Assembly: GCA_020845475.1 (NCBI GenBank)
Contig: JADLFN010000039.1
Span: 1 to 64,000, forward strand
Length of the DNA stretch: 64,000 nt
Source: Planctomycetota bacterium
Lineage (GTDB): Bacteria > Planctomycetota > UBA8742 > UBA2392
Direction of reading: 5' to 3'
The translations under genes were made by a program, and so were the position numbers. The stretch's first letter is position 1; each line of letters opens with the position of its first letter. The notes beneath the pieces are model-generated. The model was not told the DNA's origin. It saw only the letters and a program-made list of their open reading frames with translations, and ran no database searches. Positions 14,319 to 59,449 of the stretch are shown in pieces.

Positions 14319-14326
14319 CCAAATGC

Positions 14327-14425
14327 GAGGTCAGAAGTAAGAAGTCAGAGGTCAGAGGTTCGCAAGCGATGTTCGCACCTTCTGACCTCTGACTTCTGAC
14401 CTCTGACTTCTGACCTCTGACTTCT
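14327..14425. repeat. Word-based inverted repeat (AGAGGTCAGA)
   Basis: Left arm of about 34 nt made of (A)GAGGTCAGAAGT words; right arm of about 49 nt made of TGACCTCTGACTTC words, its reverse complement; centre about 15 nt. The right arm carries extra word copies, so arm lengths differ. Ends 11 nt before the start of the aldehyde dehydrogenase gene. Confidence 0.9.
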
Positions 14426-14436
14426 ACGGAGTCGCC

Positions 14437-15891
14437 ATGCCGCTCGTAACCAAGCCCGCCTCGTTCCCCACCAAGCTCTTCATCAACGGTGAATTCGTCG
14501 ATGCCGCTGACAAGCGCACCTACGACACCGTCAATCCCGCCGACGAATCCGTAATCGCGCCCATTGCCATGGCGGGCAAAGCCGACCTCGACGCGGCTAT
14601 CGCGGCCGGCAAGGCGGCACTCGCGGGCAAGTGGGGCACCATGGGCCCAGCACAGCGCTCGCAACTGATCTGGAACATCGGCGACGAGATCATGAAGCGC
14701 CGCGAGCAGTTCGCGGCACTCGAAGCCATGGACGCGGGCAAGCCCTACAGCGAGTGCTACGCCATCGACGTGCCCATGGCCGCCGATCACTTCAAGTATT
14801 TTGCGGGCGTGCTGCGCTCGCTGCAGGGCGACACGATTCCCGTCAACGACAGCCTGTTCGTTTACACGCTGCGCGAGCCGCTGGGCATCGTGGCGGGCAT
14901 CACGCCCTGGAATTTCCCGCTGCTGATGGCCGCGCGCAAGATTGGCCCCGCGATTGCGGCGGGCAACGTGTGCATTTTGAAGCCGGCAAATCCGACGCCG
15001 CTGACAGCGCTATTGCTCGCCGAGTGCATCGCGGCAGCCAAAGTCCCCGCGGGTGTGGTCAGCGTGCTGACGGGCAAGGGCAGTGAAGTCGGCCAGATGA
15101 TCGTCGAGCATCCCGAGATTGCTGCCATCAGTTTCACGGGCAGCACGGAAATCGGCGTCAAAATGGTCCGCGACGCGGCTCACACGCTCAAGAAGCTCAC
15201 GATGGAGCTGGGCGGAAAATCCCCGAACGTGGTGTTTGCCGACGCCGACATCGAGTCAGCGATCAAAGGCGCGCAGGCCGCGATCTTCTATAACAAGGGC
15301 GAAGTGTGCACCGCAGGCTCGCGCCTCTTCGTTGAAGCCAAAGTCCACGACGAAGTCGTCGAGAAGCTCGCAGCCCGCGCCAATAAGATGACCCACGGCG
15401 ACCCGCTCGACAGCGACACGCGCCTTGGCCCCCAGAACAACAAGCAACAGTTCGATACGACGCTCAAGTTCATCGAGGAAGGCAAGAAGGCCGGCGCCAA
15501 GCTTGTCGCGGGCGGTGAGCGCGCCGGAGCCAAGGGCTACTTCGTCAAGCCCACCGTGTTCGCCGACGTGAAGCCGGATATGAGCATCGCGCGCGAAGAG
15601 ATTTTCGGCCCGGTACTCGCTGTACAGAAGTTCGAAAGCTTCGAAGAACTTGTGGCCAAGGCCAACGACTCGCGCTACGGCCTCGCCGCTGGCGTCTGGA
15701 CCAAAGACGTCAGCAAGGCCCACAGGTATGCAAAAGCCGTCAAGGCCGGCGCCATCTGGGTCAATTGCTACAACTGGTACGACAGCGCAGTCCCCTACGG
15801 CGGCTACAAGCAAAGCGGCTACGGCCGCGAAATGGGTTTGCAAGGTCTGGCCGCCATGACGCAATCCAAGAGCGTTTGGGTGCAACTCTAA
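14437..15891 (+). CDS. NAD(P)-dependent aldehyde dehydrogenase
   Basis: 484 residues, full length for the ALDH superfamily. Catalytic residues are visible: Asn159 in TPWNFPL, Glu257 in MELGGKSPN and nucleophile Cys291 in NKGEVCTAGSR. The cofactor loop FTGSTEIG is at about 233. The C-terminal YNWYDSAVPYGGYKQSGYG resembles betaine-aldehyde/gamma-aminobutyraldehyde-type enzymes, so a substituted aliphatic aldehyde is plausible, but the substrate cannot be assigned. A GGAG ribosome-binding site precedes the start right after the AGAGGTCAGA repeat. The next gene follows within a repeat arm. Confidence 0.9.
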   Translation: MPLVTKPASFPTKLFINGEFVDAADKRTYDTVNPADESVIAPIAMAGKADLDAAIAAGKAALAGKWGTMGPAQRSQLIWNIGDEIMKRREQFAALEAMDAGKPYSECYAIDVPMAADHFKYFAGVLRSLQGDTIPVNDSLFVYTLREPLGIVAGITPWNFPLLMAARKIGPAIAAGNVCILKPANPTPLTALLLAECIAAAKVPAGVVSVLTGKGSEVGQMIVEHPEIAAISFTGSTEIGVKMVRDAAHTLKKLTMELGGKSPNVVFADADIESAIKGAQAAIFYNKGEVCTAGSRLFVEAKVHDEVVEKLAARANKMTHGDPLDSDTRLGPQNNKQQFDTTLKFIEEGKKAGAKLVAGGERAGAKGYFVKPTVFADVKPDMSIAREEIFGPVLAVQKFESFEELVAKANDSRYGLAAGVWTKDVSKAHRYAKAVKAGAIWVNCYNWYDSAVPYGGYKQSGYGREMGLQGLAAMTQSKSVWVQL

Positions 15892-15893
15892 AA

Positions 15894-15931
15894 GCTATCC
15901 GCAGATGACGCCGATGGACGCCGATAAAGAC
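15894..15931. repeat. ATCTGCG-type arm 1
   Basis: Reads GCTATCCGCAGATGACGC followed by CGATGGACGCCGATAAAG. It contains the ATG start of the GxxExxY gene (15905), so the first codons (MTPMDADKD) are encoded by the repeat. Confidence 0.85.
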
Positions 15932-16330
15932 ATTCCAGTCTCGGATCCTCAGACCCACGCGATCATCGGCGCGTGCATGGAAGTGCATCGGATTCTGGGG
16001 TTTGGCTTTTCTGAAACCGTCTATCAAGAAGCCGCAGCCCGGGAATTTGCTCTTCGCGGCATCCCATACCTTCGCGAGCCCGGACTGGAGATCGTGTATA
16101 AAGGTGAGCGCCTTGACACCGTCTTTCGCGCGGACTTTCTTTGCTTCGACGACATCATCGTCGAGTTCAAGGCATTGGCAAAACTCGGCGACAGTGAGTT
16201 GGCCCAGATTCTGAATGAACTCAAAGCGAGCAAGAAACGGCGCGGCTTGCTGATCAACTTCGGCGCACGGCGGCTCGAGTTCAAGCGTGTCGTGTGGAAA
16301 TGGGATGAACCAAAACCCCCATCTGCGTAA
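15905..16330 (+). CDS. GxxExxY protein (PD-(D/E)XK nuclease-like)
   Basis: 141 residues. The defining motif G34-F-S-E37-T-V-Y40 is followed by a PD-(D/E)XK-like core: D77 in FRADFLC and E87-F-K89 in IIVEFKA, as in family PDDEXK_3 (PF13366, TIGR04256). The C-terminal part (GLLINFGARRLEFKR) is also typical. The family is widespread and usually of unknown function; the fold suggests a nuclease. The start codon lies inside repeat arm 1 and the TAA stop inside repeat arm 2, so the gene and its flanking repeats seem to form one unit. The alternative start 9 nt later (MDADKD) is also inside the arm. Confidence 0.85.
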   Translation: MTPMDADKDIPVSDPQTHAIIGACMEVHRILGFGFSETVYQEAAAREFALRGIPYLREPGLEIVYKGERLDTVFRADFLCFDDIIVEFKALAKLGDSELAQILNELKASKKRRGLLINFGARRLEFKRVVWKWDEPKPPSA

Positions 16331-16404
16331 TCTGCGTCATCTGTGGATTGCCGTTTGCCGCAATACACGATCCGCAGATGACGCAGATTCCCGCAGATAG
16401 AGGC
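16320..16404. repeat. ATCTGCG-type arms 2 and 3 around a short centre
   Basis: CATCTGCGTAATCTGCGTC at 16320-16338 begins arm 2, which carries the stop codon of the upstream gene. GATCCGCAGATGACGCAGAT at 16369-16388 begins arm 3. The two are inverted around 16 nt. The word is ATCTGCG(T/A)(C/A). The geometry is the same as the other word-based inverted repeats of the window. Confidence 0.9.
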
Positions 16405-16426
16405 ATAACGACGGGAGCTTGTCCCG

Positions 16427-17054
16427 CTGATTTGCCCGAAATGTGGAGCCGACCTCGACGTGCCGGATGGCATTGAGGCGTTTCGCTGCGAATACTGCGG
16501 CTCAAAGTGCCAGGTAAAGGCCAGCGGTTCCGTACGCGGCTTGGCTTTACTTGAAGCGGGCGTACAAAAAGTCGTTCAGCACACCGAACGAAGCGCCGAC
16601 TATCTGGAAGAACTGGTCGAAGCCCAGCGGGAAAAACAGCGGACAGAACAACGCGCCCGTGACGATGCCTTGCGTGCGGACGCGCAATCGCGCGCAGATG
16701 CGAAATCCCAATGGGAAAAACGCCTCAATGAACTGAACACCGCATGGAGCACCCGCGGGGAGGCGGCGTTGAAGACCTATCGAGCGTACGTCACCACTGC
16801 CAAGTGGGTCTATTTTGCCTGCGCGCTGGGGGGGGGCGGTTTTCGCAAAGCTCGGTTATTCCCATGAGGCGCAGGTCTCTATCAGTGTCTCCTGGATAGA
16901 AGTTAGTGGATGGGCTCTTTTAGGCATGTTGCTCGGTTGCGGATTTGGACTTATTCCGTTCATGCTCATTTGTTCCGCGGGGTCGCATTACCAACGCGAA
17001 GCTTGGAGCCTTCGTTCTCAACTGGACAACTGGCGCAAAGCAAAGCCCCCGTAG
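16427..17054 (+). pseudogene. Zinc-ribbon, coiled-coil, two-pass membrane protein, frameshifted at a G9 run
   Basis: In frame 1 the product opens at a CTG (16427, with GGGAG spaced 9 nt) or GTG (16460). The upstream start adds ICPKCGADLD, which pairs with CEYCG to make a zinc ribbon. A long Arg/Glu coiled coil follows, then a first membrane segment WVYFACALG. There the frame crosses nine Gs (16828-16836) and ends early at 16867. Removing one G (or adding two) joins it to VFAKLGYSHEAQ, a second membrane segment (WALLGMLLGCGFGLIPFML) and a stop at 17054. The stop lies at the edge of repeat arm 4. The cause could be sequencing error, decay, or phase variation. Confidence 0.7.
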
Positions 17055-17094
17055 TGCCTCTATCTGCGAACATCTGCGTCATCTGCGGATAGCC
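17055..17094. repeat. ATCTGCG-type arm 4
   Basis: Inverse of arms 1 and 3, reading CATCTGCGTCATCTGCGGAT in its centre. Its similarity to arm 3 continues leftward past the TAG stop codon of the frameshifted gene. Confidence 0.85.
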
Positions 17095-17155: not shown

Positions 17156-17701
17156 ATGCTGGATACCAACGCCTGCTATCGCGCCGTCAAAACCCACGAC
17201 CGCAAGTTCGACGGCAAGTTCTTCGTCGGCGTGAAATCGACGCGCATCTATTGCCGCCCCATCTGCCCCGCACGTACGCCGCGCCGCGACCGATGCTCGT
17301 TCTTTGCGACCGCGCTCGAAGCCGAACGCGCGGGATTCATGCCCTGCCTGCGCTGCCGCCCTGATCTCGCGCCGGGCAATGCGGTCGTTGACGCCAAAGC
17401 CAATCTGGCCAGACGGGCCGCGCTTTTGCTCGAGAAGAACTGGGCCATCGGCGTCGAAGAACTCGCGGCGCGGCTGGGCGTAACTTCCCGCCACCTCCGC
17501 CGTGCCATGCTCGACGAACTTGGCACAACGCCCTTGCAGCTCAAGCAATCACGCCGCATCGCGGTCGCACGAAAACTCATCCGCAAATCGCAGCTTCCAC
17601 TGATTCGCATCGCCTACGCCAGCGGCTTTGCAAGCCTGCGCCGCTTCAACGCCGCGTTCAAACAGCACACAGGCCGCGCTCCTTCGACGCTGCGCCGCTA
17701 G
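17156..17701 (+). CDS. Ada-type methyl-phosphotriester sensor and AraC regulator
   Basis: 181 residues. The N-terminal Ada zinc domain has its four ligands at Cys33, Cys37, Cys64 and Cys67 (IYCRPICPARTP, MPCLRCRP). The first is the Cys that takes methyl from DNA phosphotriesters in E. coli Ada. An AraC-type double helix-turn-helix follows (VEELAARLGVTSRHLRRAM and IRIAYASGFASLRRFNAAF). The methyltransferase domain is not attached: it is the separate gene 10 nt downstream. Role: methylation-activated transcription of repair genes. No Ada box identified. The same N-terminal architecture also heads AlkA fusions, but no glycosylase domain is present. Confidence 0.9.
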   Translation: MLDTNACYRAVKTHDRKFDGKFFVGVKSTRIYCRPICPARTPRRDRCSFFATALEAERAGFMPCLRCRPDLAPGNAVVDAKANLARRAALLLEKNWAIGVEELAARLGVTSRHLRRAMLDELGTTPLQLKQSRRIAVARKLIRKSQLPLIRIAYASGFASLRRFNAAFKQHTGRAPSTLRR

Positions 17702-59025: not shown

Positions 59026-59093
59026 GATTGTCGATTGTCGATTGTCGCTTGTCGATTGGGTACAGTGCGGTAGTTCAATCGACAATCGAAAAT
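59026..59093. repeat. Word-based inverted repeat (TCGATTG)
   Basis: ATTGTCGATTGTCGATTGTC on the left and CAATCGACAATCG on the right, about 20 nt paired around GGGTACAGTGCGGTAGT. The left arm has four word copies and the right two. Confidence 0.88.
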
Positions 59094-59277: not shown

Positions 59278-59292
59278 GGCGCGAGCAGCCTA

Positions 59293-59449
59293 ACACGAAG
59301 GAGCGAAGGAGCGAAGAACGGTAAGGCAACGGCGCAGGGATCTACAGGATGGGCAGGATGAAAACATGGGCGCACTACAGATCTCTGTTTTTGAGTCCTG
59401 TAAATCCTGACCATCCCTGCGCCGTGTCTGTTCTTCGCTCCTTCGCGTT
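59293..59449. repeat. Nested inverted repeat (outer GAAGGAGC, inner CAGGATNNN)
   Basis: The outer arms ACACGAAGGAGCGAAGGAGC (59293) and the reverse at 59429-59449 enclose inner arms 59331-59358 and 59396-59423. The inner arms are 28 nt, with matching core GGCGCAGGGAT then CAGGAT units; differences fall in the 3-nt spacers. The inner word is the same as in 50782-50868. The outer right arm includes the stop codon of the DUF4139 gene. Confidence 0.92.

Follow-up and report, generated by a model that had tools for sequence, protein, structure and literature searches.

Within the window, the whole 64,000-nucleotide stretch of DNA analysed here, the genes for an aldehyde dehydrogenase (14437-15891) and an Ada-type DNA-repair protein (17156-17701) are separated by a predicted nuclease gene, a second coding region and four repeat arms arranged in inverted pairs. 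The features of the locus are as follows:

15894-15932, plus strand: arm 1, beginning GCTATCCGCAGATGACGCCGATGGACGCCGAT, with three CRCNNAK units at a spacing of 9-10; start codon of the nuclease gene inside.
15905-16330, plus strand: predicted GxxExxY (PF13366/TIGR04256) PD-(D/E)XK nuclease gene, Cas4/RecB-like.
16320-16352, minus strand: arm 2, the inverted partner of arm 1; stop codon of the nuclease gene inside.
16370-16410, plus strand: arm 3, in the dialect of arms 1 and 2, which pairs with arm 4 and also, as a short hairpin, with arm 2.
16427-17054, plus strand: passenger ORF with a Cys4/coiled-coil N-terminus and a TM-like C-terminus, frameshifted near 16828-16835.
17050-17093, minus strand: arm 4, the inverted partner of arm 3; stop codon of the passenger inside.

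Profile searches placed the 141-aa product of the first ORF (15905-16330) in the GxxExxY family, with the full domain scoring above the curated cut-offs of both TIGR04256 (1.8e-36, 125 bits, cut-off 35) and PF13366 (1.4e-33, 116 bits, cut-off 22). As the preliminary description of this DNA had proposed, the ATG at 15905 lies within arm 1 and the TAA at 16328-16330 within arm 2. These two arms are of the ATCCGCAGATGACGCCGAT type, and arms 3 (16370-16410) and 4 (17050-17090) are complementary at 88% over 41 nt. With up to three mismatches allowed, CGCAGATNACGCAGAT had nine matches in the window against 2.8 expected, a number reached in 0/100 shuffles, and the five matches with no or one mismatch all fell inside arms 1-4. 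Genome-wide, ATCCGCAGATNACGCAGAT was matched 16 times and its reversed pattern not once. The same description had placed a second gene between arms 3 and 4. Its position and its stop codon within arm 4 held, but 16427-17054 is not a single open frame: an ORF with a Cys4 N-terminus gives way to a TM-like stretch read in a different frame, the switch falling near a run of G at about 16828-16835, which indicates either a pseudogene or a sequencing error. Relatives of this Zn-ribbon-like ORF at other places had no arms; it is therefore a passenger at the focal locus, and the idea of a systematic passenger was rejected.

The encoded protein has the hallmarks of a PD-(D/E)XK nuclease in both its sequence and its predicted structure. 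In an alignment of 57 GxxExxY sequences, E37, D77, E87, K89 and Q101 were invariant and the Y105 column was conserved in at least 90%; the focal protein has N-E-L-K after Q101 in place of the Q-x3-Y motif. The AlphaFold model (mean pLDDT 92.6) was most similar in Foldseek to Cas4 SSO0001 (4ic1, E = 1.8e-4), with lambda exonuclease and LHK-Exo also matched and tRNA-splicing endonucleases lower in the list. A sequence search of the PDB gave no match, and the likeness came from the fold search. The fold initially assigned to this gene from its PF13366 membership was thus borne out by the conserved residues (E, D, E-x-K and Q) and by the Cas4 match. Compared to the Cas4/lambda exonuclease family, GxxExxY proteins are much smaller (about 120-140 aa), have no cysteines in their conserved set and are encoded by genes bracketed by arms in the genome. 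Values of dN/dS of 0.04 and 0.16 in two ortholog pairs show that the gene is under purifying selection.

Inverted arms around GxxExxY genes were not confined to the focal locus. The host assembly (4.27 Mb, 94 contigs) contains 14 full GxxExxY genes and one truncated at a contig end. For each gene, 200 nt of upstream flank were compared with 200 nt of downstream flank, and the strongest inverted repeat between them gave the arm score; 10 of the 13 genes with catalytic motifs scored 14-31, compared to a mean of 9.4, a 99th percentile of 13.5 and a maximum of 15 at control positions. These arms were gene-specific: when an upstream arm was instead combined with a downstream arm from another gene, the score was in most cases well below that of the true pair. 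In a sample of 80 GTDB species-representative loci, picked by protein motif only so as to remove selection and drawn from Planctomycetota, Verrucomicrobiota, Cyanobacteria, Acidobacteria, Bacteroidota, Chloroflexi, Nitrospirota, Proteobacteria, an archaeon and others, 74 had enough flank to be scored. A score of at least 13 was reached by 58/74 loci and one of at least 16 by 47/74, the corresponding fractions of control positions within these loci being 2.5% and 0.07%; about a fifth to a quarter of the sampled loci were without arms by this scoring. Broad sampling, suggested as a check when the locus was first described, therefore revealed a general association, whilst the ATCTGCG arm named at that time proved to be one dialect of a broader code rather than a universal sequence. 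A search of 50,697 phage records gave no match, and one of plasmids gave eight records.

The association was coupled to the nuclease motif, for which an internal negative control was available. Nearly every genome of the host's family carries, once per genome, a divergent GxxExxY paralog that lacks E-x-K and Q-x3-Y. All 16 of these paralogs (L030, L210-L224) had low arm scores (7.0-11.5), and none was armed, compared to 88/116 other GxxExxY genes (Fisher P = 2.6e-9). Arms therefore go with the intact nuclease motif and not with the family alone. The single-copy, motif-less and arm-less paralog looks domesticated.

Arm sequences varied from gene to gene (CGCAGATGA, CGCCAAGGA, CACAGAGA, CACGAAGGGC and others), and a fixed arm sequence was rejected in favour of dialects of a common code. 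Its unit is the 7-nt CRCNNAK (CRC-N-RAK), found 135 times in 57 near arms versus 10 times after shuffling and spaced almost only at 8, 9 or 10 nt. Between the two arms of an element, mismatches amounted to 7.7% at unit positions versus 45% in the spacers. Within units, position 4 was also free (36% mismatch between arms), and at position 5 the two arms had the same base, G or A, in 101/107 cases. Since units pair and spacers do not, rungs of 7-8 bp alternate with small internal loops along the stem of the folded hairpin; the folding stability of the hairpins reached z scores of -6.7 to -9.1 (DNA parameters). The dialects co-varied with the protein: arm similarity rose from 0.21 at 30-40% protein identity to 0.74 above 75% (Mantel r = 0.24; highest value in 999 permutations, 0.241). 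A further candidate, GCAACTGC/GCAGTTGC as a universal terminal motif outside the arms, was rejected, being strong in the hairpins of G014 and weak or absent elsewhere.

We located the syntenic site of each own-genome element in two same-genus genomes (G001 and G002) by its flanking sequence. Among 12 GxxExxY elements tested, nine (L017-L021, L025, L026, L028 and L029) were empty in both genomes, the whole gene being missing at every one of these sites; presence or absence could not be called for L027. For L021, L025 and L028 the gene was also missing in a more distant family member, which favours gain in the host lineage. At the L022 site, the gene is present in G000 and G002, and G001 has a hairpin in that dialect without the gene. 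The focal site of G001 still has both arms, but of the domain just the first ~80 nt remain, the rest being deleted or decayed; in G002 the GxxExxY gene is gone, and arm 1, arm 4 and a decayed passenger ORF persist. G014, from another genus, has an element (L226) that three genus-mates lack, their flanks meeting directly at the junction; next to the full element, G014 has a second copy with an internal deletion, and another internally deleted copy was found in G004. The latter genome also has focal-dialect arms around a small membrane-protein-like ORF (L322, G004:C101:69362-70102), a second non-nuclease ORF inside such arms. Its site syntenic to the focal locus (L077, on C73) has no hairpin element, but two small ORFs, by eye apparently a toxin-antitoxin-like pair, and a duplicated aldehyde dehydrogenase 3' end.

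The proposed comparison of empty and filled sites thus yielded empty, decayed and gene-less sites, and conserved neighbourhoods with no empty sites, the outcome that had been named as speaking against mobility, were not what we observed. The precise junctions hoped for were not recovered. No exact insertion junction at high identity was found among the compared sites, as several 'empty' sites have spacers with little similarity to the filled site, which makes exact junctions unreadable there. Direct repeats around 44 elements, whose ends are not base-exact, showed no excess over a mismatched-pair control. The dissimilar spacers would also fit immobile, fast-evolving regulatory hairpins (terminators or stability elements) acquired by chance, with presence and absence reflecting intergenic turnover. 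This we regard as extremely improbable: it sits badly with nine syntenic sites that lack the whole gene and with flanks that abut in three genus-mates at one site, with a dialect that one genome has in dozens of copies and its relatives almost lack, with copies that are alike in their flanks beyond the arms, and with the link of the arms to a single protein family and to its catalytic residues.

The focal dialect was also present as stand-alone hairpins. The 30 neighbouring pairs of dialect matches in G004 faced inward without exception, with a spacing of 44-68 nt in 25 of them, and in G014 the same orientation was found in 17/19 neighbouring pairs. Hairpins of G014 shared more than their arms, with flank identity above 75% in 33/120 pairs and some common loop sequence in 14/120, compared to none of the shuffled pairs in either case; common flanks and loops demonstrate that the hairpins of this one genome were copied as units. 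The abundance of hairpins was then compared with the presence of the cognate gene. Focal-dialect matches numbered 29, 73 and 17 in the three genomes with the gene and at most six in the other 13, and the CCACGAAGGGCC dialect numbered 84, 38 and 37 in carriers and 0-1 in non-carriers, with one exception of 13; both patterns were noticed post hoc. For two further dialects, predictions of gene dependence were written down before counting. The period-8 CACAGAG dialect had two matches (its own arms, in G004) and six in carriers and was most frequent in the non-carrier G008 (nine). The CGCCAAGG dialect had 22 matches in G000 and two in G002, both carriers, and 17 in the non-carrier G007. Pooled over the four dialects, with own arms subtracted and genome relatedness ignored, dependence on the gene was significant (P = 3.7e-4), whereas the prospective pair alone gave P = 0.26. 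Since the prospective predictions held only partly and relatedness was ignored, mobilisation of the hairpins in trans by the nuclease is regarded as no more than plausible. The original suggestion of a nuclease-driven cassette accordingly has only indirect support, from the unarmed dead relatives, the tracking of protein by dialect and the two post hoc dialects, and in part from the two prospective ones.

Taken together, GxxExxY genes with an intact motif are probably the coding part of widespread small mobile hairpin elements, which would resemble REPIN/RAYT systems with a PD-(D/E)XK nuclease in place of their enzyme. A full element would consist of an arm, the gene and an inverted arm, and derivatives without the gene (short hairpins) or with another ORF would persist beside full elements and could become numerous. 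The arms could fold into the stem of 7-bp rungs and small internal loops once the DNA is single-stranded, whether on the lagging strand or in an extruded cruciform. The cognate Cas4/lambda-exonuclease-like nuclease would recognise this stem and cut or trim there, and host repair or replication might then copy the element into a new intergenic site without target duplication. We infer recognition of the arms by the nuclease, its driving role in movement (both in cis and in trans) and a single-stranded intermediate from the patterns above.

Among the closest known counterparts is REPIN/RAYT (TnpA-REP, 'REPtron'), in which the genes of a single-gene nuclease family have palindromic repeats of their own on either side, hairpin doublets of the same repeat are numerous between genes and serve as non-autonomous units, and repeat classes are matched to particular proteins, with proposed co-evolution (PMC3116915, PMC8266576). 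Likewise, GxxExxY elements have cognate repeats at the gene and inverted doublets elsewhere. However, the protein at the focal locus belongs to PF13366 and not to PF01797, and is predicted to be Cas4-like PD-(D/E)XK where RAYT is HUH/Y1; since the defining Y1 transposase is absent, the element is REPtron-like yet not a REPtron. The gene also lies inside the hairpin, its start and stop codons falling within the arms at the focal locus, and the arms are 8-10-nt tandem units with unpaired spacers, unlike the 20-40 bp palindromes of REPs. Small size, subterminal hairpins, internally deleted non-autonomous copies and, in the case of IS200/IS605, the lack of target duplication recall IS200/IS605 and bacterial MITEs, which differ in having fixed ends where GxxExxY arms are dialect-specific for each element; moreover, GxxExxY elements carry no transposase of any known class. 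Neither the target-site duplication nor the DDE transposase of DDE insertion sequences and their MITEs was found, PF13366 being the sole domain in the element. Unlike the site of a homing endonuclease, the elements of one genome occupy many unrelated intergenic sites.

RAYT-REP pairs coexist with GxxExxY elements in the same genomes, with different repeats. This bears on the alternative that the elements are mobile but moved by a RAYT/Y1 transposase, a reverse transcriptase or replication errors at hairpins, GxxExxY being a passenger or an arm-binding autoregulator. Y1 transposases occur in 16/16 family genomes and could in principle act in trans, other ORFs are found between such arms (focal arms 3-4; G004:C101), an unrelated four-helix-bundle family has arms of its own, and the two prospective carrier tests were mixed. 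Nevertheless, 19/20 Y1 genes had their own strong G+C-rich inverted repeat (score of at least 20) and none had paired CRCNNAK arms. Recovery of these repeats served as a positive control for the scoring and speaks against movement by RAYT, a candidate that we rejected on these grounds. Y1 genes were also common where the tested dialects were rare (G012, 9; G013, 11; G007, 16), and a passenger role for GxxExxY fails to explain arms limited to motif-intact relatives or dialects that track the protein. We therefore consider movement by another agent unlikely. The Y1/RAYT-type genes (L330-L349) had long, double G+C-rich palindromes on their flanks, and these often carried an AATAGCC tag.

The four-helix-bundle genes (TIGR02436, S23-like) of the host genome and its relatives (L100-L129) represent a parallel case, as 18/24 scored at least 13 for arms. 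Their arms have a period of 7 or 14 and consist of tandem units of exactly 7 nt (AGTTGATAGTTGATAG, GTGTCTGGTGTCTGG; for example L101, L103, L104, L118 and L129), distinct from the GxxExxY code. ORFs of the S23p/four-helix-bundle family are known from intervening sequences (IVSs) of 23S rRNA, for example in Coxiella, where their terminal inverted repeats are cut by RNase III (PMC4990558). Like a GxxExxY element, such an IVS is a short ORF between terminal inverted repeats that form a long stem, and it has been called a selfish element (PMC4990558); it differs in its protein family and in lying in rRNA, from which it is excised as RNA. GxxExxY elements might accordingly be RNA-level elements whose arm stem is excised from a transcript, for example by RNase III, with a nuclease that acts on RNA or is incidental. 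The arming of the same S23p family here, the very stable folding of the hairpins and the tRNA-splicing endonucleases among the lower Foldseek matches would agree with this. However, the elements are intergenic, where being cut out of a transcript offers no evident advantage; the top structural matches (Cas4, lambda exonuclease and LHK-Exo) are DNA exonucleases; and excision accounts for tolerance of the elements but not for their spread. Rfam detected no rRNA in the window, and the focal element lies between protein genes without an S23p ORF. Overall, an RNA-level explanation appears very unlikely.

Returning to mobile DNA elements built around the nuclease, a broader reading, which we put forward tentatively and at somewhat less than an even chance, is that they form a pan-bacterial class whose sole enzyme, a Cas4-like nuclease, reads a structural code in the arms and mobilises hairpins in trans, with the S23/four-helix-bundle genes as a parallel class reading a 7-nt code, both being RAYT-like without a transposase. 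If true, a Cas4/RecB-type nuclease would join the DNA-moving enzymes. Many genomes have annotated GxxExxY proteins without a known role, and the link to hairpins gives the family a testable function. Short tandem repeats of the CACAGAG/CGCAAAG type are usually ignored, and their link to a gene offers an origin for the intergenic hairpin population. A literature search, with preprints and most subscription journals outside its scope, found no description of GxxExxY hairpin elements, and within it the arm repeat strings appeared only in a fish eDNA study. The locus had been singled out as a candidate for an undescribed mobile system; the literature searched and sites that come and go agree with that view, whilst movement by the nuclease itself is the inferred part. 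With three gene-repeat partnerships in one genome (RAYT with REPs, GxxExxY with 8/9/10-nt units and four-helix-bundle genes with 7-nt units), the question of what leads a protein to amplify a hairpin becomes directly testable.

Hairpins of both the 8-10-nt and the 7-nt kind were found in a 464-kb sample of the genome. Within the window, a stand-alone period-7 hairpin (beginning AGAAGTCAGAGGTCAGAGGT) lies at 14325-14425, directly upstream of the aldehyde dehydrogenase gene, and a second period-7 hairpin at 59027-59093. Close to the latter, at 59292-59449, hairpins are nested, with AACACGAAGGAGCGAAG outer arms around an inner pair of the ACAGGATGGGCAGGATG type, and these may represent a third arm code.
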